Of a stretch of DNA of 42,878 nt, positions 10,757 through 30,291 are shown piece by piece; the stretch's first letter is position 1; each line of letters starts with the position of its first letter. Source of the stretch: Bryobacter sp. CoA8 C33 (lineage in GTDB: Bacteria > Acidobacteriota > Terriglobia > Bryobacterales > Bryobacteraceae); NCBI GenBank assembly GCA_019931185.1, contig JAINDK010000029.1, forward strand, positions 1-42,878, read 5' to 3'. The notes beneath the pieces were generated by a model that was given only the letters and a program-made list of their open reading frames with translations, searched no databases and was not told where the DNA came from. The position numbers and the translations under genes were made by a program.

Positions 10757-12139
10757 GTGTTGCTGCCAAGATCCTTACTGGCTTTCCCCCGCCGCGCCGT
10801 CACCCTCGGCCTCCTCATCGGATCCTTCATGGGCTCCATGGAGGCAACCGTCGTCGCCACCGCCATGCCCAGCATCGTCGCCCAGCTCGGCGGCTTCTCT
10901 CTTTACGGCTGGGCATTTTCCATTTATGTTCTCGCCTCGAGCGCCGGTATCCCCCTGGCCGGGAAACTTTCCGACATTCTCGGCCGCCGCGTCGTCTACC
11001 TCGGCAGCATGCTCCTCTTCCTGGCCGCCAGCCTCTTGTGCGCCTTCGCCCCATCCATGCCCTGCCTGATTGTCTTCCGCGCCCTCCAGGGCCTCGGCGC
11101 CGCTGGTCTCCTGCCCCTCGCCCTCGTCATGATCGGCGATATGTTCACCTTCGCCGAACGCGCCCGCATCCAGGCGCTCTTCTCCGCCGTTTGGGGTGTC
11201 TCGAGTATCGTCGGCCCCCTACTCGGCGGCTTCCTCGTCGACCGCGTCGGCTGGCCCAGCGTTTTCTACATCAATGTCCCTTTCGGCATCCTTTCGGCCT
11301 GGTTCGTCTGGCACTATTGGACCGATCACCACGACCTTTCCGCCTCTTCCCCCCACATCGACTACGCTGGCGCCGCCCTCATCACCCTGTCCACCATCTC
11401 TCTACTGCTTGGTCTGACCGACCTGACCGCTTGGTTCGGCCCTCCTCTGATCCTGCTCTCTGTCCTGCTCGCCGGCCTCCTCTGGCGCGTCGAACAGCGC
11501 AGCCCGGACCCCGTCGTCCCCCTACGGCTCTTCTCCTGGCCGCTTTTCACCCTCTCCCTGCTTCACTCCCTCACCATCGGCTGGGCCCTGAACGGCGTCA
11601 CCGCCTATGTCCCTCTCTACGTCCAGCAAGTTCAGGGAAAATCCGCCACCGAGGCCGGTGCCGCTCTCACTCCCCTGCTGCTCTCCTGGGTCGTATCTAG
11701 CGCCCTTTGCGCCCGCCTCATGCTTCGCACCGGCTACCGCGGCCCCGCCCTCGCCGGCATGAGCTTCGTCATCGCCGGCAGCATCCTGCTTGCCCTCCTC
11801 CAGCCTGATTCCCCACACTCCCTCTTGCTGTCCAGCATGCTCATCATGGGCGCCGGCTTCGGCCTCACTGTTCCCGCACTCCTCATCGCCGTCCAGATGC
11901 TCGTCGACCGGCAGTCCATGGGCGTCGCAACCAGCGCTCTCCAATTCGCCCGCGGCATCGGCGGCAGTATCGGCGTCGGCGTCATGAGTGCCTTCCTCAA
12001 CAGCCGTATCCCGGCCGCCGGTATCGCCTCCGCCCTCCAGTCCACATTCTGGCTCGCCGGCGTTGTCACCCTCCTCGGTCTCGCCTTCACCCTCGCCGCA
12101 CCCCACGTCTCCGCCGCCGAATTGAACCGCCGCCGTTAA
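10757..12139 (+). CDS. MFS drug/solute exporter, DHA2 (14-TM) type
   Basis: A 460-residue inner-membrane permease of the major facilitator superfamily. About fourteen hydrophobic segments can be counted, and the signatures are those of the DHA2/EmrB branch: MEATVVATAMPSIVAQLGG in the first helix, then AGKLSDILGRRVVYLGS (motif A) and FRALQGLGAAGLLPLALVMIGDMF (motif B region), GPLLGGFLVDRVGWPSVFYINVP (motif C). The protein probably works as a proton-driven exporter of drugs or metabolites. The start is a GTG at 10757 with CTGGA just upstream; no ATG is near. It follows the dehydratase by 26 bp, so a link to sugar-acid export or uptake is possible, but the DHA2 type argues for efflux. Confidence 0.85.
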   Translation: MLLPRSLLAFPRRAVTLGLLIGSFMGSMEATVVATAMPSIVAQLGGFSLYGWAFSIYVLASSAGIPLAGKLSDILGRRVVYLGSMLLFLAASLLCAFAPSMPCLIVFRALQGLGAAGLLPLALVMIGDMFTFAERARIQALFSAVWGVSSIVGPLLGGFLVDRVGWPSVFYINVPFGILSAWFVWHYWTDHHDLSASSPHIDYAGAALITLSTISLLLGLTDLTAWFGPPLILLSVLLAGLLWRVEQRSPDPVVPLRLFSWPLFTLSLLHSLTIGWALNGVTAYVPLYVQQVQGKSATEAGAALTPLLLSWVVSSALCARLMLRTGYRGPALAGMSFVIAGSILLALLQPDSPHSLLLSSMLIMGAGFGLTVPALLIAVQMLVDRQSMGVATSALQFARGIGGSIGVGVMSAFLNSRIPAAGIASALQSTFWLAGVVTLLGLAFTLAAPHVSAAELNRRR

Positions 12140-16756: not shown

Positions 16757-18430
16757 ATGCAGCGCCGCACTTTGTTAACTACTAGCCTGACGGGCATCCT
16801 GGGAGCCGCCGCACTGCCGGCGGCTCCTTTGCGTCCACGCGAACTCAAGGCCGATCTCGCCATCCTGGGCGGCGGTACGGGAGGCTGCGCCGCCGCCCTC
16901 GGCGCCTTGCGCGAAGGCCGCCGCGTCATCCTCACCGAACAAACCCGCTGGATCGGCGGCCAGCTCACCAGCCAACTCGTCCCCCCCGACGAACACCCCT
17001 GGATGGAGATGTTCGGTGGCACCCGGGCCTATCGCCAATACCGCGAAGCCGTCCGCGGCTTTTACTACAGCCACTTTCCCCTCACCGGCGAGGCACGGCG
17101 CCGCACCCCCTTCAACCCCGGCGGCGGCTCCGTCTCGGGCCTCACCCACGAGCCCCGCGTCAGCCTGGCCGTTCTCGAGGCGCTGCTCGCCCCCTATGCC
17201 GCCAGCGGCCAACTCACTCTCCTCACGGAATTCAAACCCGTAGCCACCCTTACCTCCGCCGACCGCATCACCGCCGTCACCGTCGAGCATACCGGCGAAA
17301 ATCACCGCATCACCCTCGCGGCCCCCTATTTCATCGACGCCACCGAGCAGGGCGATCTGCTCCCGCTCGCCCGCTGCGAATTCCTGACCGGCGCCGAGGG
17401 CCAGAGCCAGACCGGAGAACCAAGCGCCCCTTCTACCCCCCAGCCGGCCAACATCCAATCCTTCACCGTCTGCTTCGCCGTCTCCCACCACGACGGCGAA
17501 AACCACACGATCGACAAGCCCGAGGATTACGCCTTCTGGCGGGACTACATCCCGCGAATGACCCCCCCCTGGCCCGGCAAACTCCTCGCCTGGCACATGT
17601 CGAACCCGATTACGCTCGAAAAACGCGTTGTCGATTTCGACCCCCGCCAGGACCAGCCTCAGGCCGGGGCGCCGCTCAATCTCTGGCTCTACCGCCGCAT
17701 CCGCCGCCGTCTCAACTTCACCGATCCCCAACTCGACGCCGACATCAGCCTCATCAACTGGCCCCAAAACGATTACTGGCTCGGCAATCTCCACGGCGTG
17801 CCCGAAGCCGAAGCCGCCCGCCACCTCCGCCGCGGCAAACAACTCAGCCTCTCGCTGCTCTACTGGATGCAGACGGAAGCCCCCCGCGCCGATGGCAAGG
17901 CCGGCTGGCCCGGCCTCCGCCTGCGCCACGACCAGTCCGGCACCGAGGACGGCCTCGCCATGTACCCCTACATCCGCGAAAGCCGCCGCATCGCCGCCGA
18001 GTTCACCGTTCTCGAGCAACACGTCGCCACCAAGGGCCGCGAAACAACCGGCGCTGAAAAATTCGCCGACTCGGTCGGCATCGGCTCCTACCGCATCGAC
18101 CTCCATCCATCCTCGGGCGGGGACAATTACATTGACGTCTCGAGCCAGCCCTTCCAGATTCCCCTCGGCGCCCTGCTGCCCCAGCGCCTCGAAAACCTGA
18201 TCGCCGGGGCCAAAAACCTCGGCGTCACCCACATCACCAATGGCTGCTACCGCCTCCACCCCGTCGAATGGAATATCGGCGAATCCGCCGGGGCGCTGGC
18301 CGCCGAAGCCCTCCGCACGGGCGAACCCCCGCGCCAGATCCGCCGCAAACCCAAGCTGCTGGCCGATTTCCAGGCCCGCCTGCGTTCTCATGGAGTTCAA
18401 ACCGAATGGCCCTCGCTCTCTCCTCGCTAG
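16757..18430 (+). CDS. Exported FAD-dependent oxidoreductase
   Basis: A 557-residue flavoprotein of the FAD_oxidored (GidA-like/xanthan lyase-type) family common in Planctomycetes and Solibacter-like bacteria. It starts with QRRTLLTTSLTGILGAAALP, a twin-Arg-like signal peptide, then ADLAILGGGTGGCAAALGA at about residues 32-50, the FAD dinucleotide fold, TEQTRWIGGQLTSQ, and YFIDATEQGDLLPLA. The C-terminal part contains GGDNYIDVSSQPFQIPLGALLP and NLIAGAKNLGVTHITNGCYRLHPVEWNIGESAGALA, the second FAD-binding stretch. The substrate is unknown; relatives are found near sugar-degradation genes. The start codon ATG 16757 gives the signal peptide. Its last 25 bp overlap the start of the PQQ dehydrogenase, suggesting coupled translation of two exported redox enzymes. 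Confidence 0.82.
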   Translation: MQRRTLLTTSLTGILGAAALPAAPLRPRELKADLAILGGGTGGCAAALGALREGRRVILTEQTRWIGGQLTSQLVPPDEHPWMEMFGGTRAYRQYREAVRGFYYSHFPLTGEARRRTPFNPGGGSVSGLTHEPRVSLAVLEALLAPYAASGQLTLLTEFKPVATLTSADRITAVTVEHTGENHRITLAAPYFIDATEQGDLLPLARCEFLTGAEGQSQTGEPSAPSTPQPANIQSFTVCFAVSHHDGENHTIDKPEDYAFWRDYIPRMTPPWPGKLLAWHMSNPITLEKRVVDFDPRQDQPQAGAPLNLWLYRRIRRRLNFTDPQLDADISLINWPQNDYWLGNLHGVPEAEAARHLRRGKQLSLSLLYWMQTEAPRADGKAGWPGLRLRHDQSGTEDGLAMYPYIRESRRIAAEFTVLEQHVATKGRETTGAEKFADSVGIGSYRIDLHPSSGGDNYIDVSSQPFQIPLGALLPQRLENLIAGAKNLGVTHITNGCYRLHPVEWNIGESAGALAAEALRTGEPPRQIRRKPKLLADFQARLRSHGVQTEWPSLSPR

Positions 18431-20118
18431 CCCTCTTGCTCCTCGCCCAGCCCACGGCCATCACCCCGGCCAACGCCGGCCGGCTCACCGTCGCCTGGCG
18501 CTACCATCACGGCGAAAATCCCCCCCAACGCAACCCCGGCGATCGCCTCAGCTTTAACGCAACCCCAGTGCATGCCGAGGGCAAACTCTTCGTCATTACC
18601 CCCCGCGGCTCGGCCATCGCCCTCGACCCCGCCACCGGCAAGGAATTGTGGCGCCGCAACCGCACCGGCCCGGCGCGCCGCTCCTGGGGCGCCGCCTATG
18701 CCCAGGGCCGCCTGCTCTTCGGCACCCCTGACGGCAAACTCGTCTGCCTGCTCGCCCGCAATGGCGAACTGCTTTGGGAAACCGATCTCCGGCTCGGCCT
18801 CGCCGCCGGTCATCTCTCCCTAAACATGCCGCCCACGATCCTCGGCGACCTCGCAATCACCGGAGGCGAATTGCCCGAGGGGACGCCCCACGGCCCGGAA
18901 CCCCTCATCCGCGCCTGGCGCATCGCCAATGGCAAGCTCGCCTGGCAATTCCGCACCATCCCGCCCGACGGCGACCCCGCTGCCCTCACCTGGGCCCCCG
19001 GCTCGCGCACCGGCCGCACCGGCGTCAACGTCTGGGGCCAGTGCGCCGCCGCCCCGGAGGAGAACACGCTCTATTGCCCCACCGGCAGCCCCAGCTATGA
19101 CTTCTATGGCGGCGACCGCCACGGCGATAATCTCTACGCCAACTCCGTGCTCGCCCTCGAAGCGAAGACCGGCCGCCTCAAGTGGCACCGCCAGCTCGTC
19201 CACCACGACATCTGGGATTATGATCTCCCCGCCAAGCCCGTTCTGCTCGATATCGCCGGCCGCCCCGCCCTCCTTCAGGTCACCAAGATGGGCTTACTCT
19301 GGTTTCTCGACCGCCGCACGGGCGAGCCCATCTTTGGCGCCGAGGAGCGCGCCGTCCCCCCCAGCGCCGTCCCTGGCGAAAAAACCGCACCCACCCAACC
19401 CTTTCCTCTCAAACCTCCCCCCCTGGCTCGCATCCGCCTCAGCCCGGACGATCTGAATACGCTCACCCCCGAGTGGGCCGCCGAATGCCAGGCTCTCTTT
19501 GACCAGTCGGGCAACTCCGGCATCTTCGCCCCCTGGCTGTCTGACCGTTACACCATCATGCTCCCCGGCACCCTCGGCGGCGGCGCCTGGTCCGGAGCCG
19601 CGCATGACCCCCAACGCCGCCTCGTCTTCGTCAACATCAATGAACTCGGCATTATCGGCAAGATGACGCGCCGCGGCGACTCCTGGGTGCGCGTCTCCCC
19701 CGGTACACACGCCCGCTTCGCCACGGCGAATCTCGTCCCCTGCACGCTACCGCCCTGGAACACCCTCAACGCCATCGACACCACCACCGGCGAGGTGCGC
19801 TGGCGCGTGCCGCTCGGCGAGCTGCCGCAGGCCAAACAACTCGGCTTCGACAACACCGGCGCCTACGGCCTCGGCGGCGCGCTCGCCCTGCCCGGCGGCG
19901 TGGTCTTCATCGGCGGCGCCGCCGACCAGCACTTCCGCGCCTTCGATGCCGCCACCGGCCGCCTGCTCTGGCAACACCAGGCCGCCGGCAGCTTCTATGC
20001 CACCCCGGCCGTCTTCTCCGATGGCCGCGGCCGCGAAACGATCGTCGTCGCCAGCGGTGGCGGTGGCTTTTTCCCCGGTCCGCTCAACGACGAACTGATC
20101 GCCTTCCGGCTCCCCTAA
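18406..20118 (+). CDS. PQQ-dependent dehydrogenase (quinoprotein glucose/alcohol type)
   Basis: A 570-residue eight-bladed propeller dehydrogenase. A signal peptide (MALALSSLALLLLAQ) leads to ANAGRLTVAWRYHHG, then tryptophan-docking repeats such as AIALDPATGKELWRRN, LLARNGELLWET, LEAKTGRLKWHRQ and FDAATGRLLWQHQ. The signature WDYDLPAKPVL after HHDI, and the closing GGGFFPGPLNDELIAFRLP, are typical of soluble glucose-dehydrogenase-like quinoproteins. PQQ would be the cofactor in the periplasm. No CxxCH heme motif is present, so electrons must pass to a separate carrier. ATG 18406 is preferred over the longer frame from 18268 because it gives the signal peptide; it overlaps the FAD gene by 25 bp. 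No PQQ synthesis genes are in the window. Confidence 0.82.
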   Translation: MALALSSLALLLLAQPTAITPANAGRLTVAWRYHHGENPPQRNPGDRLSFNATPVHAEGKLFVITPRGSAIALDPATGKELWRRNRTGPARRSWGAAYAQGRLLFGTPDGKLVCLLARNGELLWETDLRLGLAAGHLSLNMPPTILGDLAITGGELPEGTPHGPEPLIRAWRIANGKLAWQFRTIPPDGDPAALTWAPGSRTGRTGVNVWGQCAAAPEENTLYCPTGSPSYDFYGGDRHGDNLYANSVLALEAKTGRLKWHRQLVHHDIWDYDLPAKPVLLDIAGRPALLQVTKMGLLWFLDRRTGEPIFGAEERAVPPSAVPGEKTAPTQPFPLKPPPLARIRLSPDDLNTLTPEWAAECQALFDQSGNSGIFAPWLSDRYTIMLPGTLGGGAWSGAAHDPQRRLVFVNINELGIIGKMTRRGDSWVRVSPGTHARFATANLVPCTLPPWNTLNAIDTTTGEVRWRVPLGELPQAKQLGFDNTGAYGLGGALALPGGVVFIGGAADQHFRAFDAATGRLLWQHQAAGSFYATPAVFSDGRGRETIVVASGGGGFFPGPLNDELIAFRLP

Positions 20119-20122
20119 ATGG

Positions 20123-20150
20123 AAAAAAGGGCGCCCCGCCGGGGGCGCCC
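20123..20150 (-). terminator. Intrinsic terminator of the lpdA-lipB-E2 operon
   Basis: Read on the minus strand, GGGCGCCCC (20150-20142), a 4-nt loop and GGGGCGCCC (20137-20129) form a 9-bp GC-only stem, followed by TTTTTT at 20128-20123. It lies 28 bp after the E2 stop codon. The plus-strand PQQ gene ends at 20118 on the other side but would lack a T-run, so the terminator mainly serves the minus-strand operon. Confidence 0.85.
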
Positions 20151-20178
20151 CCTCTCACCTGCTGTCGAGCGGCAGTGC

Positions 20179-21555
20179 CTACAGCACCTGCTCGCTGAAG
20201 TTCTCGAGGATTCCCTTGATCTTCTGGCAGAACTGATCGGCCAGCGCCCCGTCAATCAGACGGTGGTCAAAGGTCAGCGCCAGATGCGCCTGACTGCGAA
20301 TCGCGATCGCGTCATCCACCACCACCGGCACCTTCTCGATCGAGCCGATCCCGAGGATCGCCACATTCGGCTGGTTGATCACCGGCGTCGCGAAGATGCT
20401 GCCAAAGCTGCCAAAGTTCGTCAGCGCGAAGGTACCGCCCGAGATGTCATCCGGCTTCAACTGCTTGCCCCGCGCCCGGTTCGCCAGATCCACGATCGAC
20501 CGCTGCAGACCCACGATGTTCATCTCATCGGCCCGCTTGATCACCGGCACGATCAAACCCATGCCGCCATCAAGCGCCACGGCAACCCCCAGGTTCACTT
20601 CGTTGTGATAAATGATGTTGTCGCCTTCAATCGAGGAGTTCAACAAGGGATAAGCGCGCAGCGCCTCGCCGGCCGCCCGCGCGATAAACGGCAGGAAGGT
20701 CAGCCCGAAGCCATAACGCGCCTGGAACTCGTCCTTGTGCTTGGCCCGCAGCTTGGCGATCTTCGTCATGTCCACCTTGTGCACCGTCGTCACATGCGCT
20801 GAGGTGGACTTCGATTTGATCATGTGCTCGGCGATCTTGCGCCGCATGATGCTCATCGGCTCAACACGTGTCTTGGCCGGGCTGGCCGCAGCCGGGGCCG
20901 GCACGCTGCTGGCCGCCGGAGCCGCGGGCGCGGCAGCGGCAGCGGGAGCTACCGGCGCCGGAGCCGCCGCAGCCGGGCTGGGCGCCGCACTCGCCATCGT
21001 CCGCGCCGCCTGCGCCTCGATGTAGCCTTCAATGTCCTGTTTCGTGATCCGCCCACCGGCCCCCGTACCCGGCACCTGAGCCAGATCAATGTTGTACTCG
21101 CGCGCCATCTTGCGCACCAGCGGCGACAGCGGCCCGTTTACCGGCTCCACTTCAATCGCCGGAGCCGCCGCGGCCGGAGGGGGCGCCGGTGCAGGAGCCG
21201 CCGCGGGAGCCGGTGCTGGCGCGGGAGGCGCAACCGGAGCCGGAGCAACCGGTGCAGGCGGTGCAGGCGGTGCAGGCGGTGCCGCTGCGGCCGCCGCTAC
21301 CGGCGCCGCCGCAGCCGCACCCCCTTCCCCAATCCGTGCCACTACCGTGTTGATGCTCACCGTCGAGCCTTCCTTCACCAACACTTCCACCAGCGTGCCC
21401 GCCGCCGGCGACGGGATCTCCGTGTCTACCTTGTCCGTCGAGATCTCAAACAGCGGTTCGTCCCGCTCCACTTTCTCGCCCGGCTTCTTCAGCCAGCGCG
21501 TCAGCGTTCCCTCGACAATGCTTTCGCCCATTTGGGGCATCACGACGTCAGTCAT
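20179..21555 (-). CDS. 2-oxo acid dehydrogenase E2 (dihydrolipoyl acyltransferase)
   Basis: A 458-residue E2 core enzyme that moves the acyl group from E1 to CoA on a swinging lipoyl arm. The N-terminal lipoyl domain (1-78) carries the lipoylated Lys42 in EISTDKVDTE. A long Ala/Pro linker follows (about 80-140), then the E3/E1-binding domain (SPLVRKMAREYNIDLAQVPG, GRITKQDIEGYI), a second Ala/Pro linker and the catalytic domain with TFDHRLIDGALA: His431 and Asp435. Whether it serves pyruvate, 2-oxoglutarate or branched-chain 2-oxo acids cannot be settled from sequence. The start ATG overlaps the stop of lipB by one base (TGATG). E1 is not in the window; E3 (lpdA) is two genes upstream. A terminator lies directly behind. 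Confidence 0.88.
   Translation of the reverse strand: MTDVVMPQMGESIVEGTLTRWLKKPGEKVERDEPLFEISTDKVDTEIPSPAAGTLVEVLVKEGSTVSINTVVARIGEGGAAAAAPVAAAAAAPPAPPAPPAPVAPAPVAPPAPAPAPAAAPAPAPPPAAAAPAIEVEPVNGPLSPLVRKMAREYNIDLAQVPGTGAGGRITKQDIEGYIEAQAARTMASAAPSPAAAAPAPVAPAAAAAPAAPAASSVPAPAAASPAKTRVEPMSIMRRKIAEHMIKSKSTSAHVTTVHKVDMTKIAKLRAKHKDEFQARYGFGLTFLPFIARAAGEALRAYPLLNSSIEGDNIIYHNEVNLGVAVALDGGMGLIVPVIKRADEMNIVGLQRSIVDLANRARGKQLKPDDISGGTFALTNFGSFGSIFATPVINQPNVAILGIGSIEKVPVVVDDAIAIRSQAHLALTFDHRLIDGALADQFCQKIKGILENFSEQVL
21251..21277. repeat. 9-bp tandem repeat in the E2 Ala/Pro linker
   Basis: Three exact units of GGTGCAGGC stand head to tail and encode part of the Ala/Pro linker on the minus strand. The wider 20880-21310 stretch is compositionally simple for the same reason. 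Slippage here would change linker length without breaking the frame. Confidence 0.7.
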
Positions 21556-22241
21556 CAGTGCGTCTCCTGTAATTGTTCAATCCTAGCCGGTAGCTCGTGT
21601 GCGAAGATCTCCGCCAGATGCCGCGTCAGCCGCTGCATCACTTCCTCCCGTTCCGCCTCGACACCCAATTCGGCCATCGACGTGACCGGTAGCGTCAGTC
21701 CACACGGAACGATCAGTTGAAAATAGCGAAGCTCCGGTTTCCAGTTCAATGCAAAGCCGTGGCTGCTCACCCAGCGGCTCATGTGTATTCCCAGCGCGCA
21801 GATCTTGGCTGGCGCTCCATCCTCCCGCCTCACATACACACCCGTTTCCTTGCCCTCGCGTGTATGCGCCGCAATGCTGTATTCTCCCAGCGTCCGCACC
21901 ACCGCTTCTTCAAGCGCCTTCACGTAAGCCCGCAAATCCTTGCGCCACGCCGCCACGTCAAAAATCGGATAGCCCACGATCTGCCCCGGCCCGTGATACG
22001 TCACATCCCCGCCCCGGTCTGTCTCGAACACCCCGATCCCCTGCCCCGCCAGCCAGTCCCGCCCGGCGAGAATGTGCTGTTCTTCGGCGTTGCGCCCCAT
22101 CGTGATCACATGCGGGTGCTCGGCGAACAGCAGCGTGTCCGGCACCAAGCCAGCCTTGCGCTTCTCGACATAGTCCCGCTGGATGGCCCAGGCCTCGTCC
22201 CAGCGGACTCGGCCCAGATCCACCACCTCCAGTCTACGCAT
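21555..22241 (-). CDS. lipB: Octanoyl-[acyl-carrier-protein]:protein octanoyltransferase LipB
   Basis: A 228-residue LipB that moves octanoate from acyl carrier protein to lipoyl domains, the first step of protein lipoylation in the cytoplasm. The family signature RGGDVTYHGPGQIVGYPI is at residues 76-93. The catalytic pair is visible as Lys146 in PAKICALGI and Cys180 in FQLIVPCGL, and HGFALNW and TSMAEL are also conserved. Length is normal. It lies between lpdA (8-bp overlap) and the E2 gene (1-bp overlap), whose lipoyl domain is its natural substrate. lipA, which would insert the sulfurs, is not in the window. Confidence 0.93.
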   Translation of the reverse strand: MRRLEVVDLGRVRWDEAWAIQRDYVEKRKAGLVPDTLLFAEHPHVITMGRNAEEQHILAGRDWLAGQGIGVFETDRGGDVTYHGPGQIVGYPIFDVAAWRKDLRAYVKALEEAVVRTLGEYSIAAHTREGKETGVYVRREDGAPAKICALGIHMSRWVSSHGFALNWKPELRYFQLIVPCGLTLPVTSMAELGVEAEREEVMQRLTRHLAEIFAHELPARIEQLQETH

Positions 22242-23628
22242 TAATCGCCATTCCGTAGACGGCGCTGAAGGCCTCGCCTACTGCTTCGTATTGCGTCGGG
22301 TGCGCATGGATCGTATTCATGATCGTCTCCACGGTCGCCTCGGCTTCCATCGCCACCACGGCCTCGGCAATCAACTCATAGCCATGATGCCCAATGATAT
22401 GCACGCCGAGTATCTCGCCAAAAGTCTCATCGGCCACAACCTTCACAAACCCTTCGTGATGGCCCACAATCGACGCCTTCGAGTTCGCCGCGAACGGAAA
22501 CTTGCCCACCTTCACTTTGTAGCCCGCCGCCTTGGCCTGCGCCTCGGTCAGCCCGACGCTCCCAATGCCCGGGTCCGTATAGGTCGCCCCGGGAATCCGG
22601 TTCTTCTTGATCGGCGTCACTTCCGTGCCCGCGATGTGACCGATGGCCACCAGCCCCTCGGCCGTCGCCACATGCGCCAACTGCGGCGTACCCAGCACGA
22701 CGTCACCAATCGCATAGACGCCCGGCTCGGCCGTTTGCTGAAATCCATTCACCTTGATGAAGCCACGGTCGGTTTCGATCTTCGTATTTTCGATGCCGAT
22801 CGACTCCGTGTTCGGCTTGCGCCCCACGGCCACCAGCAGCGTCTCCACAGACACCTGCTCCACCTTGCCGTTGGCCAGCGTCGCCGTGAAGCTCACATGG
22901 TCGGCGTGCACCTGCACGTTTTCCACCTTCGCCCCTGTCTCGCAGCGAATCCCTTCCTTCTTGAAACTCCGCTCCAGTTCCTTCGACACTTCCTCGTCCT
23001 CGACCGGAACCAGCCGCGGCAGCATCTCGAAGATCGTCACTTCGCTGCCAAAGCGGCGGAAGATATTGCCAAACTCGACGCCGACCGCGCCCGCACCAAT
23101 AATGCCGAGCGTCTTCGGCACGCTCTGCAACTCGAGGATCTCCACGTTCGTCACGATCCGCGGCGATTGCGGCTTGAGCCCCGGTATCATCCGCGCCTCC
23201 GAGCCCGTCGCGATTACGATCGCCTTGGCCTCGATTACCTTCTTCTGCCCGTTCTGATCCACTTCCACCTTGCCGCCGCCAAGCAGCCGCCCGTAGCCGG
23301 GGATCACTTCCACCTTGTTTTTCTTCATGAGGAAGTCAATGCCCTTGGCGTGCTTGGAAACGATCTTCGCCTTGCGGTCGATCACGTTCGGGAAGTGCAG
23401 CACCGGTTGCTGGCAACTGATGCCTTCCTCTTCCGGATGCATGAAGTAATTCCACACGCTCGCCGTATGCAGCAGCGCCTTCGTCGGCACGCAGCCCACA
23501 TGCAGGCACGTCCCGCCCAGCTTCGGAGCCTTTTCAATAATCGCGGCCTTCAGGCCGAATTGCCCGGCGCGCACCGCCGCTGAGTAGCCTCCCGGGCCAC
23601 TGCCGATAATCACTACGTCGTAAGACAT
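22234..23628 (-). CDS. lpdA: Dihydrolipoyl dehydrogenase (E3)
   Basis: A 464-residue flavoprotein that reoxidises dihydrolipoamide with NAD+. It opens with YDVVIIGSGPGGYSAAVRAG (FAD site) and carries the redox disulfide in GGTCLHVGCVPTKALL, Cys41 and Cys46. The NAD site is GIIGAGAVGVEFGNIF, the second FAD segment GVYAIGDV, and the C-terminal HAHPTQYEAVGEAF supplies the catalytic His-Glu pair to the partner subunit. Start ATG 23628 has AAAGGGA 6-7 nt upstream. It begins the lpdA-lipB-E2 block but stands only 43 bp behind the HNH nuclease gene on the same strand, so it may share the upstream transcript or use a promoter inside ptuB-like DNA. Confidence 0.93.
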   Translation of the reverse strand: MSYDVVIIGSGPGGYSAAVRAGQFGLKAAIIEKAPKLGGTCLHVGCVPTKALLHTASVWNYFMHPEEEGISCQQPVLHFPNVIDRKAKIVSKHAKGIDFLMKKNKVEVIPGYGRLLGGGKVEVDQNGQKKVIEAKAIVIATGSEARMIPGLKPQSPRIVTNVEILELQSVPKTLGIIGAGAVGVEFGNIFRRFGSEVTIFEMLPRLVPVEDEEVSKELERSFKKEGIRCETGAKVENVQVHADHVSFTATLANGKVEQVSVETLLVAVGRKPNTESIGIENTKIETDRGFIKVNGFQQTAEPGVYAIGDVVLGTPQLAHVATAEGLVAIGHIAGTEVTPIKKNRIPGATYTDPGIGSVGLTEAQAKAAGYKVKVGKFPFAANSKASIVGHHEGFVKVVADETFGEILGVHIIGHHGYELIAEAVVAMEAEATVETIMNTIHAHPTQYEAVGEAFSAVYGMAINA

Positions 23629-23671
23629 GGGTTCCCTTTCAGTGTAACAATGCCCGCCGCTCGAACCTGTT

Positions 23672-24613
23672 TCAAAATCTCAGTTTCTCCACCTCCACCC
23701 GGCACCCCGCTTCCTCCCAACGCTGCTCGAGCCAGCCGCGGACCGCCGCTCCACTCAACTCCCATAATGTCCGCAGCACCCACAGCCGCTCTTCTTCTCC
23801 TGGCTCGATTTCCAGTTCGGCCAGAACCTCGATCGCCATGCTCTGCCGCTCCTCATCGGCGCTGGGAATCAGTTCCTCCCGGTTATACTGCTTCAACCGT
23901 TGCACCACCAGCAGACTGTGGCGGCTGTGGCGGCTTGCCATCACGCGCACGGCATCCTCGCGGCCATCCTCGACGTAGCGCAGAGCCTCGGAGATTACGC
24001 GGCGACGGTCTTGAACCAGTAGCCCGTCCCGGTTCCAGCGGAAGAACTCGCCGATCGCCTCGACCCGGCGCCGCTGTTCCGCGTCGAGGCCCGGCGCCGG
24101 CTCGAGGATTCCATTCTCCAGATCGGCGATCACCCAGTCCTCCAGATCCTCCCATGCCGGATGCGCCAGCACCGGATCCTCAGCCGCCAGATCCTTCCGG
24201 GTGTCATAGCGCAAGCGCCGCGCCTCGTCGCGCAGGGGAAACTTCGTTCGCTTGAGCGTCCGATTGCAACGGCTGCAACTAAGTAAATAATTGCCGAGTT
24301 CATAAGCCAACCACCAGTAGCCCCCATTGGGCGCTTCGATTCGGGCGCCCGACTTGACGGAGTTCTTCGGGCGGTAATGCTCAACATCCCCCCGGTCATT
24401 CTGCGGCAAAAGTGAACCGCAAAATCCACACACCCGTCCCTGACTGGCGTACAGCACGCCCCGCACATCGGCCTCGTTCCCGTGATCGGGAAAATGGAGC
24501 GGCGCCCCCGGGTCAGCCTCCCGCTGCTGCCGGTGCTCACCCCGTTTCAAGCCCCCCTTACCCGCTTGCGCCAACGTCGGCGGTTCCACTGCCGCCATCC
24601 GGTACCGTCTCAT
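23672..24613 (-). CDS. ptuB: HNH endonuclease, Septu PtuB-like
   Basis: A 313-residue nuclease of the HNH type. Cys62 and Cys65 (RVCGFCGS) and Cys113 and Cys116 (LLSCSRCN) form a zinc ribbon around the active site. The catalytic His79 lies in DVEHYRPKN, and Asn108 and Asn117 complete the HNH fold. The order CxxC, VEHYRPK, WLAY, NYLLSCxxCN, K-x-x-FPL is that of the HNH effectors paired with AAA ATPases in Septu and retron-linked systems (TIGR02646-like). From residue 130 to the end lies a helical extension with no known motif. It starts 4 bp behind the ATPase gene, and such pairing is the Septu hallmark. The name ptuB is by analogy; activity is inferred. Confidence 0.7.
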   Translation of the reverse strand: MRRYRMAAVEPPTLAQAGKGGLKRGEHRQQREADPGAPLHFPDHGNEADVRGVLYASQGRVCGFCGSLLPQNDRGDVEHYRPKNSVKSGARIEAPNGGYWWLAYELGNYLLSCSRCNRTLKRTKFPLRDEARRLRYDTRKDLAAEDPVLAHPAWEDLEDWVIADLENGILEPAPGLDAEQRRRVEAIGEFFRWNRDGLLVQDRRRVISEALRYVEDGREDAVRVMASRHSRHSLLVVQRLKQYNREELIPSADEERQSMAIEVLAELEIEPGEEERLWVLRTLWELSGAAVRGWLEQRWEEAGCRVEVEKLRF

Positions 24614-24617
24614 GCCG

Positions 24618-25808
24618 CTACTTCTTGAGCCGCCTCAATCGCTCGCCAATTTCGACCGGGCTCAGAATCGGCTCCTGCTGGCTCAGCAGCGAGACCACGC
24701 GCCCGCGCTGCCCGCGGTCAGCCTCGGCCTCCGCCAACATATCCTCCAAGGCGGCCCCGCTCGCGCGCGCCCCCATCAGGCGCTCCATTACCTGATTCAC
24801 CGGCAGGCCAAACACCTGATGCTCCAACCGCTCCACTCCCCCTTCGCGATCCCGGTCGAGAAGAATAATTTCGTTCTTGTCAAAGCAACTCAACACCAGC
24901 GGACTGTGTGTCGTCACAATCCATTGCACACCCGGAAACACCTTGCGCAGTCGCGGGACCAGCGTCCGCTGCAGTTGCGGATGCAGATGCGGATCGATCT
25001 CATCGATCAGCACCAGGGCCTCAATCTCGCTGGCGCTCCCTCCTTCGGGCCGCATCTTCGTCCAGTTCCACACCAGATCCGCCAGCCACGCCACTGTCGA
25101 GCGGTACCCGTCCGGCAACTCCTCCGCTCCCACCACCGCACCGTCCTGCGTGAAGTTCAAGCCCTCCCCCAGCGCCAGTTCCTCCTTCAGCACGCCCCGG
25201 ATCACCTCCGAAAACAGCCGCTCAAAGCCCGCCGGCGCCTCCCCGCCACGCTGCATGAACTGCTGCTGGCTTACCAGCGGCGTCAGCGTCTCAAACAGAC
25301 TGTACACCCGCGCGCACTCCAAACTCAGATTCGCCAGTCCTTCGTTTGCTTGCCTCGCGAAGGTCCGCGATGGCCCATAACCCAGAATCAGGTATTTCTC
25401 CGCAATTCCCTTGTTTCTGGACCATCCCCCGTCCGAGTAGAACTGTAATTCTTGCCTGCTGCCCCCCGTTTCCACATCCGCTCTCAAGGCAAAGGAGCCG
25501 ACTGGCTCCATTCCCTGTCTCCAGGTAAAGCCAAACAACCTGGTCCGGCCCAACTCAACGGAAAAGTAGTCACCCAGTCCCAGCAACGCTATCGCCTGCA
25601 GAATACTCGACTTCCCTGCCCCATTGATTCCCGCGATGCAAGTCCAATTCCCACCCAACTCCGTTCCCCGGTCAAAGTCCAGCCGGAGATTCTCGAAGCA
25701 CTTGAAGTGGTTCAGTTCAATGCTCTTGACACGAAATCGCGATGCCAACTGATTCACGCCGCTAGTATGGAGCCAGCGCCTCAGGCCCCGAACCCAACTT
25801 TTCTGCAC
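24618..25808 (-). CDS. ptuA: AAA ATPase, Septu PtuA-like
   Basis: A 396-residue ABC/SMC-related AAA ATPase. It begins VKSIELNHFKCFENLRLDF, the typical RecF/OLD-like start, then Walker A GINGAGKS at 60-67. The second half holds LPDGYRSTVAWLADL (signature-like, about 231-245), Walker B ALVLIDE (264-270) followed by DPHLHPQLQ, and the H-loop TTHSPLVLS with His301. No TOPRIM domain follows, so it is not an OLD nuclease; with the neighbouring HNH gene it fits PtuA, which forms a complex with PtuB and, on infection, releases nuclease activity. The first 25 residues are not conserved-looking; GTG 25757 is an alternative start. The divergent gene begins only 12 bp away from ATG 25808. Confidence 0.7.
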   Translation of the reverse strand: MQKSWVRGLRRWLHTSGVNQLASRFRVKSIELNHFKCFENLRLDFDRGTELGGNWTCIAGINGAGKSSILQAIALLGLGDYFSVELGRTRLFGFTWRQGMEPVGSFALRADVETGGSRQELQFYSDGGWSRNKGIAEKYLILGYGPSRTFARQANEGLANLSLECARVYSLFETLTPLVSQQQFMQRGGEAPAGFERLFSEVIRGVLKEELALGEGLNFTQDGAVVGAEELPDGYRSTVAWLADLVWNWTKMRPEGGSASEIEALVLIDEIDPHLHPQLQRTLVPRLRKVFPGVQWIVTTHSPLVLSCFDKNEIILLDRDREGGVERLEHQVFGLPVNQVMERLMGARASGAALEDMLAEAEADRGQRGRVVSLLSQQEPILSPVEIGERLRRLKK

Positions 25809-25820
25809 TCTCCCGCGCCC

Positions 25821-26348
25821 GTGAGGAATCTCCGAGCTGTCGTGACATCACTCGTGGCGCTCTCTCTCCTGCTCTCCCTTTCCCCAGGCCAACCCTTGCC
25901 CGCCCTCAAGGGCGAATTCCTCTCCGGCAAGAAAGCCACTCTGCCCGACGCCGCGCGCGGCAAAATGGCGCTCTACCTCATCGGCTTCTCTTACGATTCC
26001 CGCTTTCCCGTCGAAGCCTGGGCCGCCCGCTTCAAACAGGACTTTCTGTCCCACTCGGGTATCACCTTCTTCGAGGTGCCGGTCATCGGTGGCCTCGGTA
26101 TGCTCGGCAAACCCTTCATCGATTCCGGCATGCGCCGCGGCACCCCGGCCGGCTTTCATGAAAACGTCCTCACCGTCTATGGCGGCGTCGGCCCCCTGCG
26201 CAAGGCCTTCGCTCTCAAGAACGAAAAGCACGCCGTCGTCGTCTTGTGTGACCGCCAGGGGAACGTGCAGTGGTCCTATGAGGGGCCCTTCGACGCCAAT
26301 CAATACGCCGCGCTCAAGACCACCATCGACCGCCACTTGTCTCATTAG
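25821..26348 (+). CDS. Exported thioredoxin-fold-like protein (ATP10-like pattern)
   Basis: A 175-residue protein with an N-terminal signal sequence (TSLVALSLLLSLSPGQP) and then PALKGEFLSGKKATLPDAARGKMALYLIGFS, the opening of a thioredoxin-like fold, but with no CxxC redox site. FEVPVIGGLGMLGKPFIDSGMRRGTP and VVVLCDRQGNVQWSYEGPF continue the pattern, which is reminiscent of the ATP10-like family. The match is by eye only and the function unknown. I used GTG 25821; GTG 25842 would also keep most of the signal peptide and would leave more room for a promoter, since the ptuA-like gene starts 12 bp away on the other strand. It is probably periplasmic. Confidence 0.55.
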   Translation: MRNLRAVVTSLVALSLLLSLSPGQPLPALKGEFLSGKKATLPDAARGKMALYLIGFSYDSRFPVEAWAARFKQDFLSHSGITFFEVPVIGGLGMLGKPFIDSGMRRGTPAGFHENVLTVYGGVGPLRKAFALKNEKHAVVVLCDRQGNVQWSYEGPFDANQYAALKTTIDRHLSH

Positions 26349-26409
26349 CGCCCCACGCTCCCGGCAACCCCACGGCCCCCCCGCCGTCCCTCACAATAGT
26401 CATAGCCCC

Positions 26410-27690
26410 ATGCTTGCCGCCCTCGCCTTAGCCCCTCTGCTGCTTGCCCAGGCCCCCACAGGCCCCTTCCCCGTCAAAGCTGTCCTCGTCAAAGGCAACC
26501 GCCTTCTCACCGCCGCCCAGGTGACGCAAGCCGCCGGCATCCTCCCCGGCCAGTCCGTCCGCCCCGCCGACATGGACCGCGCCATGCAAAAACTCCTCTC
26601 CTGCGGCTACTTCGATCGCGTCTCCTACCGCTACGAGCCCCGCGACTCCGGCTACGCCCTCGAATGGGACATCACCGAAGTCACCGTCTTCTACCCCGTC
26701 GCCTTTGAAGACCTTCCGCTCAAAACCCCCGCCGCCAAACTACTTCTTCTGCAGCTCGACCCGCTCTTCGGCGACAAGATCCCCGCCACCCAGGAAGTCC
26801 TCCGCCGCTACGAAGACGCCCTCAACCAGGCCATCCAGCCGCCGACGCCCGAAGACCGCATCCGCGCCGCCCTCGCCCCCAACGACAAAGGCGAACTCGT
26901 CGCCACCTTCCGCCCCCGCCGGCCCCTACCCTCGGTCTACCAGGTCGATTTCACCGGCAACAAACTCATCCGCTCGGAGGAATTGCGCCCCATTCTCGCC
27001 GGCGCCGCCACCGGCGTCATCTATAAGGAAAGTGATTTCCGCGACATCCTCGACATCAAGATCCGCCCGCTCTATGAGGCCCGCGGTCGCCTGAAAGTCG
27101 CTTTTCCGGAGATCACGACGGCCAAAGCCCCCGAAAACTTCGGCCTCAACGTCACCGTGCGCGTGCTCGAAGGCGAGGAGTACAACCTCGGCGAAATCCG
27201 CTTTGCCGGCGAGGAAGGCCGCGCGGAAGACTGGCTCAAGATCGGCAACTTCCGCCAGGGTGTCACCGCAAATATGAACGAGGTCGAGGAGGGCCGCCGC
27301 CGTATGGAACTCGCCATCAAACGCACCGGCTTTCTCGATGCCAAGGTGTCGGCCCGCCGCACCCTCAACGAAGAACGAAAAACGGTCGACATGGACTTCT
27401 CCTTCTCCCCCGGCCCCCGCTACAGCTTCGACAAACTCCTCATCCGCGGCCTCGATATCATCTCCGAGCCCGAAATCCGCAAGATCTGGGGCCTCCAACC
27501 CGGCGCCCCCTTCAATCCCGAATACCCGGACTTCTTCCTCAATAAAATCCGCGAGGACGGCGTTTTCGACAACCTCGGCGAGACCAAGGCCCTCGCCGCC
27601 GTCAATGCCCAAACCCACACCGTCGAGGTGACACTGGTTTTCAAGGGCGCTCCCCCTCCTCCCGCAAGAAAGCCCCGCACCCGTCCTTGA
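26410..27690 (+). CDS. POTRA-domain protein resembling BamA without a beta-barrel
   Basis: A 426-residue exported protein with a signal peptide (MLAALALAPLLLAQ) and consecutive POTRA-like units. VKAVLVKGNRLLTAAQV opens the first, VYQVDFTGNKLIRSEEL a second, YNLGEIRFAGEEGRAEDWL a third and YSFDKLLIRGLDIISEPEI a fourth, each with the beta-alpha-alpha-beta-beta pattern of FtsQ/BamA POTRA domains. The protein ends right after the last POTRA with a Pro-rich tail, where BamA or TamA would have about 380 residues of barrel. It is probably a periplasmic accessory of outer-membrane assembly, or a remnant of duplication; no stop or frameshift is visible. ATG 26410 is chosen for the signal peptide. It is followed by scpA after 23 bp. 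Confidence 0.75.
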   Translation: MLAALALAPLLLAQAPTGPFPVKAVLVKGNRLLTAAQVTQAAGILPGQSVRPADMDRAMQKLLSCGYFDRVSYRYEPRDSGYALEWDITEVTVFYPVAFEDLPLKTPAAKLLLLQLDPLFGDKIPATQEVLRRYEDALNQAIQPPTPEDRIRAALAPNDKGELVATFRPRRPLPSVYQVDFTGNKLIRSEELRPILAGAATGVIYKESDFRDILDIKIRPLYEARGRLKVAFPEITTAKAPENFGLNVTVRVLEGEEYNLGEIRFAGEEGRAEDWLKIGNFRQGVTANMNEVEEGRRRMELAIKRTGFLDAKVSARRTLNEERKTVDMDFSFSPGPRYSFDKLLIRGLDIISEPEIRKIWGLQPGAPFNPEYPDFFLNKIREDGVFDNLGETKALAAVNAQTHTVEVTLVFKGAPPPPARKPRTRP

Positions 27691-27713
27691 GTTCCCTGCC
27701 CTGGGCCCGGCCC

Positions 27714-28514
27714 ATGGTAATTTCAAGATTAGTGTCCTCGTTCCAAATCCAGCTTCAGCAATACGAGGGCCCCCTGGACCTCTTGCTGGACCTGATCCGC
27801 AAACAGCAGATCAACATCTACGACATCCCGATCGCCCGCATCACCTCCCAGTACCTCGATTACATGCAAAAGGCGATGGCTCTCGACATCGAACTTGGCT
27901 CGGAATTCGTCTACATGGCCGCCACGCTCATCCACATCAAGAGCAAGATGCTGCTGCCGCGCGATCCCGAACTCGAGAAAATCTCTCCCGAAGAGGACCC
28001 GCGCAAGGAACTCGTCGACCGCCTCATCGAACACGAACGCTTCAAGGGCGCCGCCCAGATGCTCGAGCAGAAACGCATCATCGAGGAGGCCATCTGGACC
28101 AACCCCCAGATCAACAAACTCCTCGGCGAGGAAGCCGAACCCGCCCTCGCCGTCACCCTCTTCGATCTCGTCAAAACACTCGAAACCGTCCTTGATCGCG
28201 CCAAAAACCGCCCGATTTACGAGATCACCGGCGAGGACGTCACCGTCCCGGAGATGATCCAGCAATTGCGCGGCGTCTTCGAGCGTGTCTCCACCGGCCA
28301 GCGCTTCTCGGCCCGCGAACTCTTTGAAAAACAAAAATCCCGCCGCGCCATGATCTGCCTCTTCCTCGCTATCCTGGAAATGGTGAAGCGCCAAGCCATC
28401 GAACTCGCCCAGGACGAACTCTTCGGCGAAATCGTTCTCGCCCGCTCCGCCCAGTTTCAGGAAGCCTTCCCCAGCGAGGCCGATCTCACCGCGGTCGACC
28501 AGGAATACAAGTAG
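27714..28514 (+). CDS. scpA: Segregation and condensation protein A
   Basis: A 266-residue kleisin that bridges the SMC heads in the SMC-ScpAB condensin. The N-terminal SMC-neck-binding part is clear: FQIQLQQYEGPLDLLLDLIR, then INIYDIPIARITSQYLDYM and LGSEFVYMAATLIHIKSKML, all standard ScpA motifs. The C-terminal winged helix is TGQRFSAREL through ICLFLAILEMVKRQAIELAQDELFGEIVL. ATG 27714 was chosen; a TTG at 27687 would overlap the POTRA gene by 4 nt. The gene for ScpB follows with one base between the stop and the TTG, so the two are cotranslated. Smc itself is not in the window. Confidence 0.93.
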   Translation: MVISRLVSSFQIQLQQYEGPLDLLLDLIRKQQINIYDIPIARITSQYLDYMQKAMALDIELGSEFVYMAATLIHIKSKMLLPRDPELEKISPEEDPRKELVDRLIEHERFKGAAQMLEQKRIIEEAIWTNPQINKLLGEEAEPALAVTLFDLVKTLETVLDRAKNRPIYEITGEDVTVPEMIQQLRGVFERVSTGQRFSARELFEKQKSRRAMICLFLAILEMVKRQAIELAQDELFGEIVLARSAQFQEAFPSEADLTAVDQEYK

Positions 28515-28515
28515 A

Positions 28516-29247
28516 TTGAACAAGATGGAAGATCAGATTCAGGTAACGGAAGAATCCCCTCTCGACGCCAATCAGTTTGTCGAGGAGAAAGCAACTCTCA
28601 GCGAGGAAGACCGCCTCAAGCCCGTCATCGCGGCGATCCTCTACGTCACCCCCGAGCCCATGAGCCCGATCGATATCGCCCGCGGCCTCGGCCGCGATCC
28701 CGAACTCATCGAACGCCTCATCAACGAACTCGCCGCCTTCTACGAGGAGCCCGCCTTCGGCTTCCAGATTCACTCCAAGGCCGGCGGCTTTTACTTCGGC
28801 ACCAAACCCGAATTCGATGAACAGCTTCGCCAATTCTTCGAATCCCAAAAGCCCGCCCTCAAGCTCTCCTCGGCTGCCCTCGAGACCCTCTGCATCATCG
28901 CCTACAAGCAACCTGTCACCGCTCCCGAAATCGCCCAAATCCGCGGCACCCAGGGCGTCGGCTCACTCAAGCCCCTGCTCGACCGCCGGCTCATCACCAC
29001 CGCCGGCCGCAAGGACGTCGTCGGCAAACCCGTTCTCTACAAGACCACCCCGGAATTCCTCGTCCAGTTCGGCCTCAAGGACCTCAAGGAACTTCCTACC
29101 CTCAAGGAATTCGAAGAACTCCGTCGCCTCGCCATCGAGGACGATCTCGTCCCGCCGGCCGAACCCATCAGCCCCAAGCCCGAGACCGAACCGGTCGAAG
29201 CCCCCCCGGCGGCCGCCGCCCCAGCCTCAGAAACGGAATCCGCCTAG
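28516..29247 (+). CDS. scpB: Segregation and condensation protein B
   Basis: A 243-residue ScpB, the winged-helix partner of ScpA in chromosome condensation. VIAAILYVTPEPMSPIDIA opens the first winged helix, and ALETLCIIAYKQPVTAPEIAQIRG with VGSLKPLLDRRLI is the strongly conserved second one; YKTTPEFLVQFGLKDLKELP ends the core. The last 35 residues are Pro, Glu and Ala-rich and probably disordered. The start may be TTG 28516 or ATG 28525, three codons later. The stop codon directly touches the TTG start of the pseudouridine synthase, the usual scpA-scpB-rluB order. Confidence 0.93.
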   Translation: MNKMEDQIQVTEESPLDANQFVEEKATLSEEDRLKPVIAAILYVTPEPMSPIDIARGLGRDPELIERLINELAAFYEEPAFGFQIHSKAGGFYFGTKPEFDEQLRQFFESQKPALKLSSAALETLCIIAYKQPVTAPEIAQIRGTQGVGSLKPLLDRRLITTAGRKDVVGKPVLYKTTPEFLVQFGLKDLKELPTLKEFEELRRLAIEDDLVPPAEPISPKPETEPVEAPPAAAAPASETESA

Positions 29248-30291
29248 TTGCCCCTCGAACGCCTTCAGAAAATCATCTCCCAGGCCGGCATCGCCAGCCG
29301 CCGCCACGCCGAGGAAATGATCCTCGAGGGCCGCGTTCGCGTCAATGGCCAGACCGTCTCCACTCTCGGCGCCAAAGCCGACCTCGCCACCGATCACATC
29401 AAGGTCGACGGCAAACTCCTCCACGCGCCCCGCCATCTCCTCTACCTCGCCATGAACAAGCCCCACGGCGTCGTCACCACCATGAGCGACCCCCAGGGCC
29501 GCCCCACCGTCACCAACTACCTCCAGGGCATCAAGGAGCGCGTTTACCCCGTCGGCCGTCTCGATTATCACTCCGAAGGCCTCCTGCTGTTTACCAATGA
29601 TGGCGACTTCGCCAATGCCATCATGAACAAACACTCCAATATCGTCAAAACCTACGTCGTCAAGGCCAATGGCGCTCTGTCGGAAAAACAGATCGAGGAG
29701 TTCCGCGCCGGCATCCCCCTTTTCGGGATCCGTACCAAGCCCGCCGGACTCAAGGTCCTCTCGCGCTCGGCCAACCCCTGGTACGAGGTACAGCTCACCG
29801 AAGGACGCCAGAACCAGATCCGCATGATGTTCAAGCACTTCGGTTTCCTCGTTGAGAAACTCAAGCGCGTCCGCATCGGTTTTCTCGAACTCGCCACCCT
29901 CAAGCCCGGTCAAACCCGACACCTCACGCGCGAGGAAGTTGCCCGCTTCCAACAGATTTTTGCCTCATGCGCTCCCTCGAAGAAATCCTCCGCCAATCCC
30001 GCTCCATCGCCATCGTCGGACTCAGCTCCGACCCCGCCCGCCCCAGCTTCGGCATCGCCCAAGCCCTTCAAAAAATCGGCTACCAGATCATCCCCGTCAA
30101 CCCCAAGGAGAAAGAGGTTCTTGGCCAAACGGCCTACCCCTCGCTTCTCGACATTCCCGGCCCCGTCGACCTCGTCAACGTCTTCCGCCGCCCCAACCAA
30201 ACCCCGGAAGTCGCCCGCCAAGCCGTCCAAATCCGCGCCCAAGCGCTCTGGCTCCAACTCGGCATCGAAAACGAAGAAGCCGCGCAAATAG
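29248..30291 (+). CDS. rluB: 23S rRNA pseudouridine synthase RluB type with long basic tail
   Basis: A 347-codon frame. Residues 1-60 are an S4 RNA-binding domain (RLQKIISQAGIASRRHAEE), followed by the RsuA/RluB catalytic domain with catalytic Asp in VYPVGRLDYHSEGLLLFTND, then KTYVVKANG and EGRQNQIRMMFKHFG. The core ends near residue 240. From there an 108-residue tail rich in Ser, Pro, Ala, Lys and Arg continues to TAG 30289-30291 and overlaps the CoA-binding gene for 325 nt in another frame. Basic Pro-rich tails are common in RluB, so the overlap may be real, or an ancestral stop has been lost. The start is TTG 29248, needed to keep the S4 domain. Confidence 0.85.
   Translation: MPLERLQKIISQAGIASRRHAEEMILEGRVRVNGQTVSTLGAKADLATDHIKVDGKLLHAPRHLLYLAMNKPHGVVTTMSDPQGRPTVTNYLQGIKERVYPVGRLDYHSEGLLLFTNDGDFANAIMNKHSNIVKTYVVKANGALSEKQIEEFRAGIPLFGIRTKPAGLKVLSRSANPWYEVQLTEGRQNQIRMMFKHFGFLVEKLKRVRIGFLELATLKPGQTRHLTREEVARFQQIFASCAPSKKSSANPAPSPSSDSAPTPPAPASASPKPFKKSATRSSPSTPRRKRFLAKRPTPRFSTFPAPSTSSTSSAAPTKPRKSPAKPSKSAPKRSGSNSASKTKKPRK

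Follow-up and report, generated by a model that had tools for sequence, protein, structure and literature searches.

A predicted type I Septu pair acquired next to lpdA in Bryobacter sp. CoA8 C33 and a clade of its relatives with N-terminal fusions to PtuA

Introduction

Septu has so far been known either as a bare gene pair or as the effector of a retron. The type I systems, represented by the pair of ATCC 25922 (structures 8ee4 and 8eea) and by EcB88, consist of a PtuA ATPase followed by a PtuB HNH nuclease and lack a reverse transcriptase, and retrons of type I-A, among them Ec78 and Ec83, employ the same two effector proteins. The latter arrangement, ptuAB plus a reverse transcriptase, is described as Septu type II (PMC8565338). 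The E. coli Septu PtuA-PtuB complex is reported to be 6:2, and msDNA to keep Ec83 PtuAB inactive until infection (PMC12948488). As for the target, Septu of ATCC 25922 is reported as DNA-targeting, and according to the same source PtuAB of retron Eco7 depletes tRNA-Tyr and that of retron Eco4 probably does not (PMC11555353). EcB88 is described as cutting host tRNA-Tyr, and changing its own Walker residues PtuA K43/D316 or HNH residues PtuB H75/N91 as abolishing defence (PMC13096335).

Here, we analyzed a stretch of 42,878 nucleotides of Bryobacter sp. CoA8 C33 (contig JAINDK010000029.1), referred to below as the window. It very probably carries an anti-phage Septu pair of type I in complete form, an ATPase-gated nuclease encoded by a cassette of approximately 2.1 kb that lies between a YtfJ-like gene and lpdA and has left the lpdA promoter in place.

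Results

Two adjoining minus-strand genes with intact ATPase and HNH motifs

An earlier note on this sequence had pointed out an SMC/RecF-like ATPase and an HNH protein with two CxxC pairs, encoded side by side just ahead of a lipoate operon, and had read them as Septu or a related module. Both frames are open and lie where they had been placed, with 4 bp between ptuA and ptuB and 43 bp between ptuB and lpdA, all on the minus strand:

24618..25757, minus strand: ptuA, ABC-type ATPase of 379 aa (PADLOC and PDB sequence matches)
25608..25631, minus strand: PtuA Walker A, GINGAGKS, residues 43-50
24999..25016, minus strand: PtuA Walker B, LVLIDE (within ALVLIDE), residues 248-253
24906..24908, minus strand: PtuA H-loop histidine H284 (invariant in both PtuA alignments)
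23672..24613, minus strand: ptuB, HNH nuclease of 313 aa with an ATG start (PADLOC, structure model, Foldseek)
24263..24430, minus strand: PtuB zinc/HNH region, C62, C65, H79, N108, C113, C116 and N117 (alignment)

The ptuA frame is open from 24618 up to a GTG at 25808, the upstream limit. The GTG at 25757 is the likelier start because homology with the relatives begins just past it; at most 17 residues could precede it, and the window PtuA thus carries no additional N-terminal domain. The Walker A, Walker B and H-loop motifs noticed earlier are intact, and a signature-like LPDGYRS is also present. In PtuB, both CxxC pairs (C62/C65 and C113/C116) are conserved: C62, H79, N108, C113 and N117 are invariant among 85 aligned PtuBs, and C65 and C116 nearly so.

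Profiles and gene content place the pair in Septu type I

The best PADLOC family was PtuA for the ATPase (PDLC00292, E value of 2.1e-47) and PtuB for the HNH protein (PDLC00339, 7.5e-38). The PDLC00292 model spans 726 positions and matches the HNH protein as well (1.4e-22), and it therefore seems to describe a PtuB-PtuA fusion. Of the profiles proposed in the earlier note, the PtuA and PtuB families were thus borne out as the best ones, while TIGR02646 matched far under its cut-off in the NCBIfam search. Pfam assigned the ATPase to AAA_21/AAA_15 and gave no match for PtuB. Among PDB sequences, the top match of PtuA was the Septu PtuA 8ee4 (2.9e-25), and all of its 12 best matches bear the name PtuA, retron ATPase or simply AAA ATPase; PtuB had no match up to an E value of 1. 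Identity to the ATCC 25922 proteins (8ee4/8eea) is nevertheless low, and the window PtuA, at 379 aa, is shorter than the 465 aa of 8ee4. A generic OLD/AbiEii ATPase next to an unrelated HNH protein was considered and rejected, as those models score far below PtuA.

PADLOC at 1e-5 gave no match in the ten neighbouring frames (16757-30291), and hence no reverse transcriptase model there. By content, the window pair is Septu type I: a PtuA-family ABC/AAA ATPase with intact Walker A and B adjoins an HNH nuclease of the PtuB family whose HNH and zinc residues are intact, and the assignment to type I follows because those ten frames hold no reverse transcriptase. One could instead see here a type I-A retron (Septu type II) that has lost its reverse transcriptase, since the ATPase_I-A model matches PtuA (1.3e-41) and HNH_I-A matches PtuB (1.5e-10). 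The Septu PtuA and PtuB models outscore these retron models, however, and the curated NCBIfam Ec78 equivalogs stay below their cut-offs (136.7 of 500 bits for PtuA and 37.3 of 150 bits for PtuB). The four other members of the clade described below, in surroundings partly scanned for a reverse transcriptase, moreover carry N-terminal domains of other kinds. Taken with the lack of a reverse transcriptase model in those ten frames, this makes a decayed retron highly improbable.

PtuB has the Septu nuclease fold and a long helical C-terminal part

We compared PtuB by fold because the PDB sequence search had given nothing. With 10 sequences, modelling reached a low pLDDT of 62.8, whereas the AlphaFold2 model from 85 aligned sequences had a mean pLDDT of 90.1 and a pTM of 0.87. 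Foldseek ranks 1-10 were chains of 205-250 residues, here taken to be PtuB by their size; the titles of their entries name retron Ec78/Eco7, Septu, retron IA or Ec83. Their probabilities were 0.99-1.00, E values ran from 1.1e-5 to 0.088, with only six matches reaching 0.001, and query TM scores were moderate (0.39-0.46); from rank 11 onward the matches were noise, the sole exception being rank 28, where an Ec83 chain matched weakly. The best of these folds came from the type I-A retrons, and the type I Septu chain 8eea_G also matched (1.3e-3, probability of 1.00). Together with the profiles and the gene order, the fold bears out the Septu reading.

The window PtuB had been noted as longer than most PtuBs, with a helical C-terminal half, and both observations hold. 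It has 313 aa compared with 234 in 8eea_G, and 79 of 86 relatives measure 240-290 aa and three at least 313 aa, as counted among frames within a filter of 220-345 aa.

23675..23986, minus strand: PtuB C-terminal part, residues 210-313, helical (model and nearest PtuBs)

Model confidence falls past approximately residue 260. The helical part is common to the nearest relatives: the residues that the window protein shares with the PtuBs of loci L072, L071 and L056 include A226, R228, H232, S233, L234, P250, E255 and W278, and in the clade to which these belong PtuB lengths are 313 (window), 326, 335, 307 and 321 (L158).

The pair occupies a site that is empty in related genomes

The cassette is flanked by two genes that read away from each other:

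22234..23628, minus strand: lpdA, dihydrolipoamide dehydrogenase type, the downstream insertion edge (Pfam Pyr_redox_2, 4.4e-73)
25821..26348, plus strand: YtfJ-like gene, divergent, the upstream insertion edge (weak Pfam match, below cut-off)

In same-genus genomes G001, G003, G004 and G007, these genes are direct head-to-head neighbours. The YtfJ-like in-frame ATG nearest residue 8 lies 54-58 bp from lpdA in these four, and the window GTG at 25821 lies 2,192 bp from it; measured from residue 8 to the lpdA ATG, the distance is 69-70 bp in the four genomes versus 2,231 bp in the window. LpdA is 84-90% identical in five same-genus genomes. In G006, lpdA adjoins a bamA-like gene instead and ptuAB is absent; the junction reading left out G002 (lipB in two pieces) and G005 (lipB unmatched). 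The insertion in the window is unusually clean. Sequence divergence at both edges keeps its borders from being fixed at single-base precision, and tRNA and repeat searches found nothing that marks them.

The distribution is patchy. PtuB matches were found in 8 of 101 relatives' genomes at 1e-5 and in 8 of 396 genomes phylum-wide at 1e-10, the own genome being counted in both, and in none of the seven same-genus genomes at 1e-5, two of which are less than 90% complete. Nothing in phage records matched at 1e-5; in plasmid records there were 32 matches, all with coverage under 80%. GC3 is 0.75 for ptuA and 0.74 for ptuB, near the 0.75-0.82 of eight other window genes, so that base composition does not point strongly to any origin. 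On this comparison, ptuAB is an acquisition, and its apparent gain is dated within the genus because the site is empty in sister species. The suggested mobile defence module can accordingly be called mobile or at least acquired, and the universal conservation at this place that might have spoken against it was not observed: the site is empty in four same-genus genomes, and none of the seven has a PtuB match.

These data also bear on a housekeeping role, in which a RecF/SMC-like ATPase and an HNH nuclease would serve repair rather than defence. The ATPase does match the SMC_N and RecF models, weakly, and the GC3 of the pair is only slightly under that of most neighbours. A repair function is nonetheless very hard to reconcile with so sparse an occurrence and an empty site in the same genus, and the Septu models match far better.

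lpdA appears to have retained its own promoter

The earlier note had also proposed that the defence genes could share a transcript with lpdA-lipB-E2. Being on the same strand and only a short gap away, ptuAB might be cotranscribed with these genes and so tie defence to lipoate-dependent metabolism, and within that gap our scan listed nothing resembling a terminator on the minus strand. The gap does contain, however, a promoter-like element:

23641..23649, minus strand: TGTTACACT, extended −10 promoter-like element of lpdA (conserved form in relatives)

In 21 of 28 genomes, most of which lack ptuAB, the extended form TGNTANNNT stands 5-20 nt ahead of the start of lpdA, as against a mean of 0.43 and a maximum of 3 in 1,000 mononucleotide shuffles, and a TANNNT hexamer ends in the same range in 27 of 28 (shuffles: mean of 6.05, maximum of 13); the 28 genomes are related and hence not independent. 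On the minus strand of 23500-26000, TGTTACACT is the only match of the TGNTANNNT type. No TTGACA-like element was found in the same 5-20 nt range before lpdA. An extended −10 can function without a −35, and a two-hexamer scan listed nothing in the 43-bp gap because TGTTACACT lacks one. Promoter scans recognised no promoter for ptuA.

Relatives with the empty site necessarily express lpdA without ptuAB, and a shared transcript is not needed given the extended −10 in the gap. Cotranscription therefore seems unlikely and is not favoured; lpdA would have been left with its own core promoter after the insertion, with read-through from ptuB possible.

In most of the genomes, TGNTANNNT lies 7-12 nt from the lpdA start codon, which would imply near-leaderless lpdA transcripts across the order.

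The nearest relatives carry N-terminal domains fused to PtuA

A scan of a genome collection with the PtuB alignment, of which the best 80 of 340 relatives were kept, returned two outstanding matches, L071 from a Planctomycetaceae MAG (PtuB residues 1-269, 1e-57) and L072 from an Acidobacteria MAG (residues 1-303, 2e-57); among these best 80, the next match was at 1e-25. In a tree of 88 PtuA cores, the window, L056, L071 and L072 were united with 100/100 support. Applied at 1e-40 to 399 class genomes, a profile of these four members retrieved four, namely that of the window itself, G030 (L056), G709 (L158) and G642 (L159). The second tree, of 47 rows, placed L158 within a clade of five (100/100), and the window branched first (97/84), on a long branch for which the program warns that joins may be false; the 100/100 clade support carries such warnings in both trees. 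L159, although it passed the profile threshold, was rejected as a member, since the second tree places it outside, if weakly. When 392 genomes around the Planctomycetaceae member were searched, no further clade member turned up.

The PtuA cores of L072, L071 and L056 are 36-42% identical to that of the window, and their PtuBs 34-41%, C-terminal part included. All four other clade members (L072, L158, L056 and L071/L151) carry an N-terminal domain fused to PtuA, followed by PtuB, and the window PtuA alone is bare. L158 (2027-4261, 744 aa) and L072 (1818-4004) have a Metallophos domain ahead of PtuA (4.5e-5 and 2.3e-5, scores that are weak yet over the Pfam cut-off). The frame of L056 (3-1607) is cut by the contig end and holds a partial domain matching that of L072 (2e-8, single comparison). 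L151, the full frame of L071 (6017-10792, plus strand, 1591 aa), reads WD40 - Roc/Ras - TIR - PtuA core, with a TIR_2 match of 3.2e-11 and PtuB at 10789-11796. Active metallophosphoesterases read DxH at the first metal motif; L072 and L158 have SDLK in its place, which suggests that the domain is degenerate and perhaps sensing.

More than 150 aa precede the PtuA core in 6 of 90 loci, window counted (L071, L150, L072, L112, L148 and L099), and in 4 of 86 outside the clade, these lengths being upper bounds because starts were set at the first one after a stop; L056 has 143 aa before its frame runs off the contig start. Outside the clade, the N-terminal extensions of L148 (2073-3995) and L150 (602-3784) showed no Pfam domain.

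Several further arrangements were observed outside the clade. L099 (1926-3845) bears TIR_2 (3.8e-7) on the PtuA N terminus, and in L112 (3866-6085) PtuB and PtuA are fused into a single chain of 739 aa, which another PtuB-like frame directly follows. In L159 (3796-5700), from the same family, PtuA is likewise short (370 aa) and bare, and its PtuB has 261 aa. By eye, a radical-SAM-looking protein (CxxxCxYC) lies near ptuAB in L057 (3037-4188) and L059 (2303-3415), from genomes of different families, and in L061 (4062-9668) a ptuAB-like pair is flanked by apparent type I restriction methylase and specificity genes.

Discussion

If the window pair works as its described counterparts do, PtuA ATPases would form a multimer that binds PtuB and holds it in check. 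Infection might then alter a nucleotide or nucleic-acid state read by PtuA, whereupon the zinc-stabilised HNH site of PtuB would cut nucleic acid, either phage DNA or host tRNA, and the infection would stop. Assembly, trigger, target and activity in this host are here inferred by analogy with those systems.

The clade invites a broader reading, which we regard as possible at somewhat less than an even chance: its PtuAB may be a plug-in cutting module joined to interchangeable N-terminal sensors, the window copy being a stripped-down or ancestral form and the PtuB tail serving to dock or regulate. The sensors fused to the N terminus of PtuA would be either a probably degenerate metallophosphoesterase or a WD40-Roc-TIR receptor, and such fusion would parallel the coupling of PtuAB to RT-msDNA in retrons. 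Our literature searches found no title or abstract on these PtuA fusions, which does not establish their absence from print.

The window pair is in itself an ordinary Septu, and the clade deserves follow-up more than the pair does. Its nearest relatives join the PtuAB core to receptor-like domains, and the WD40-Roc-TIR protein recalls immune receptors. If the fusions hold, the way in which PtuAB is switched on would become testable by comparing bare with fused members.
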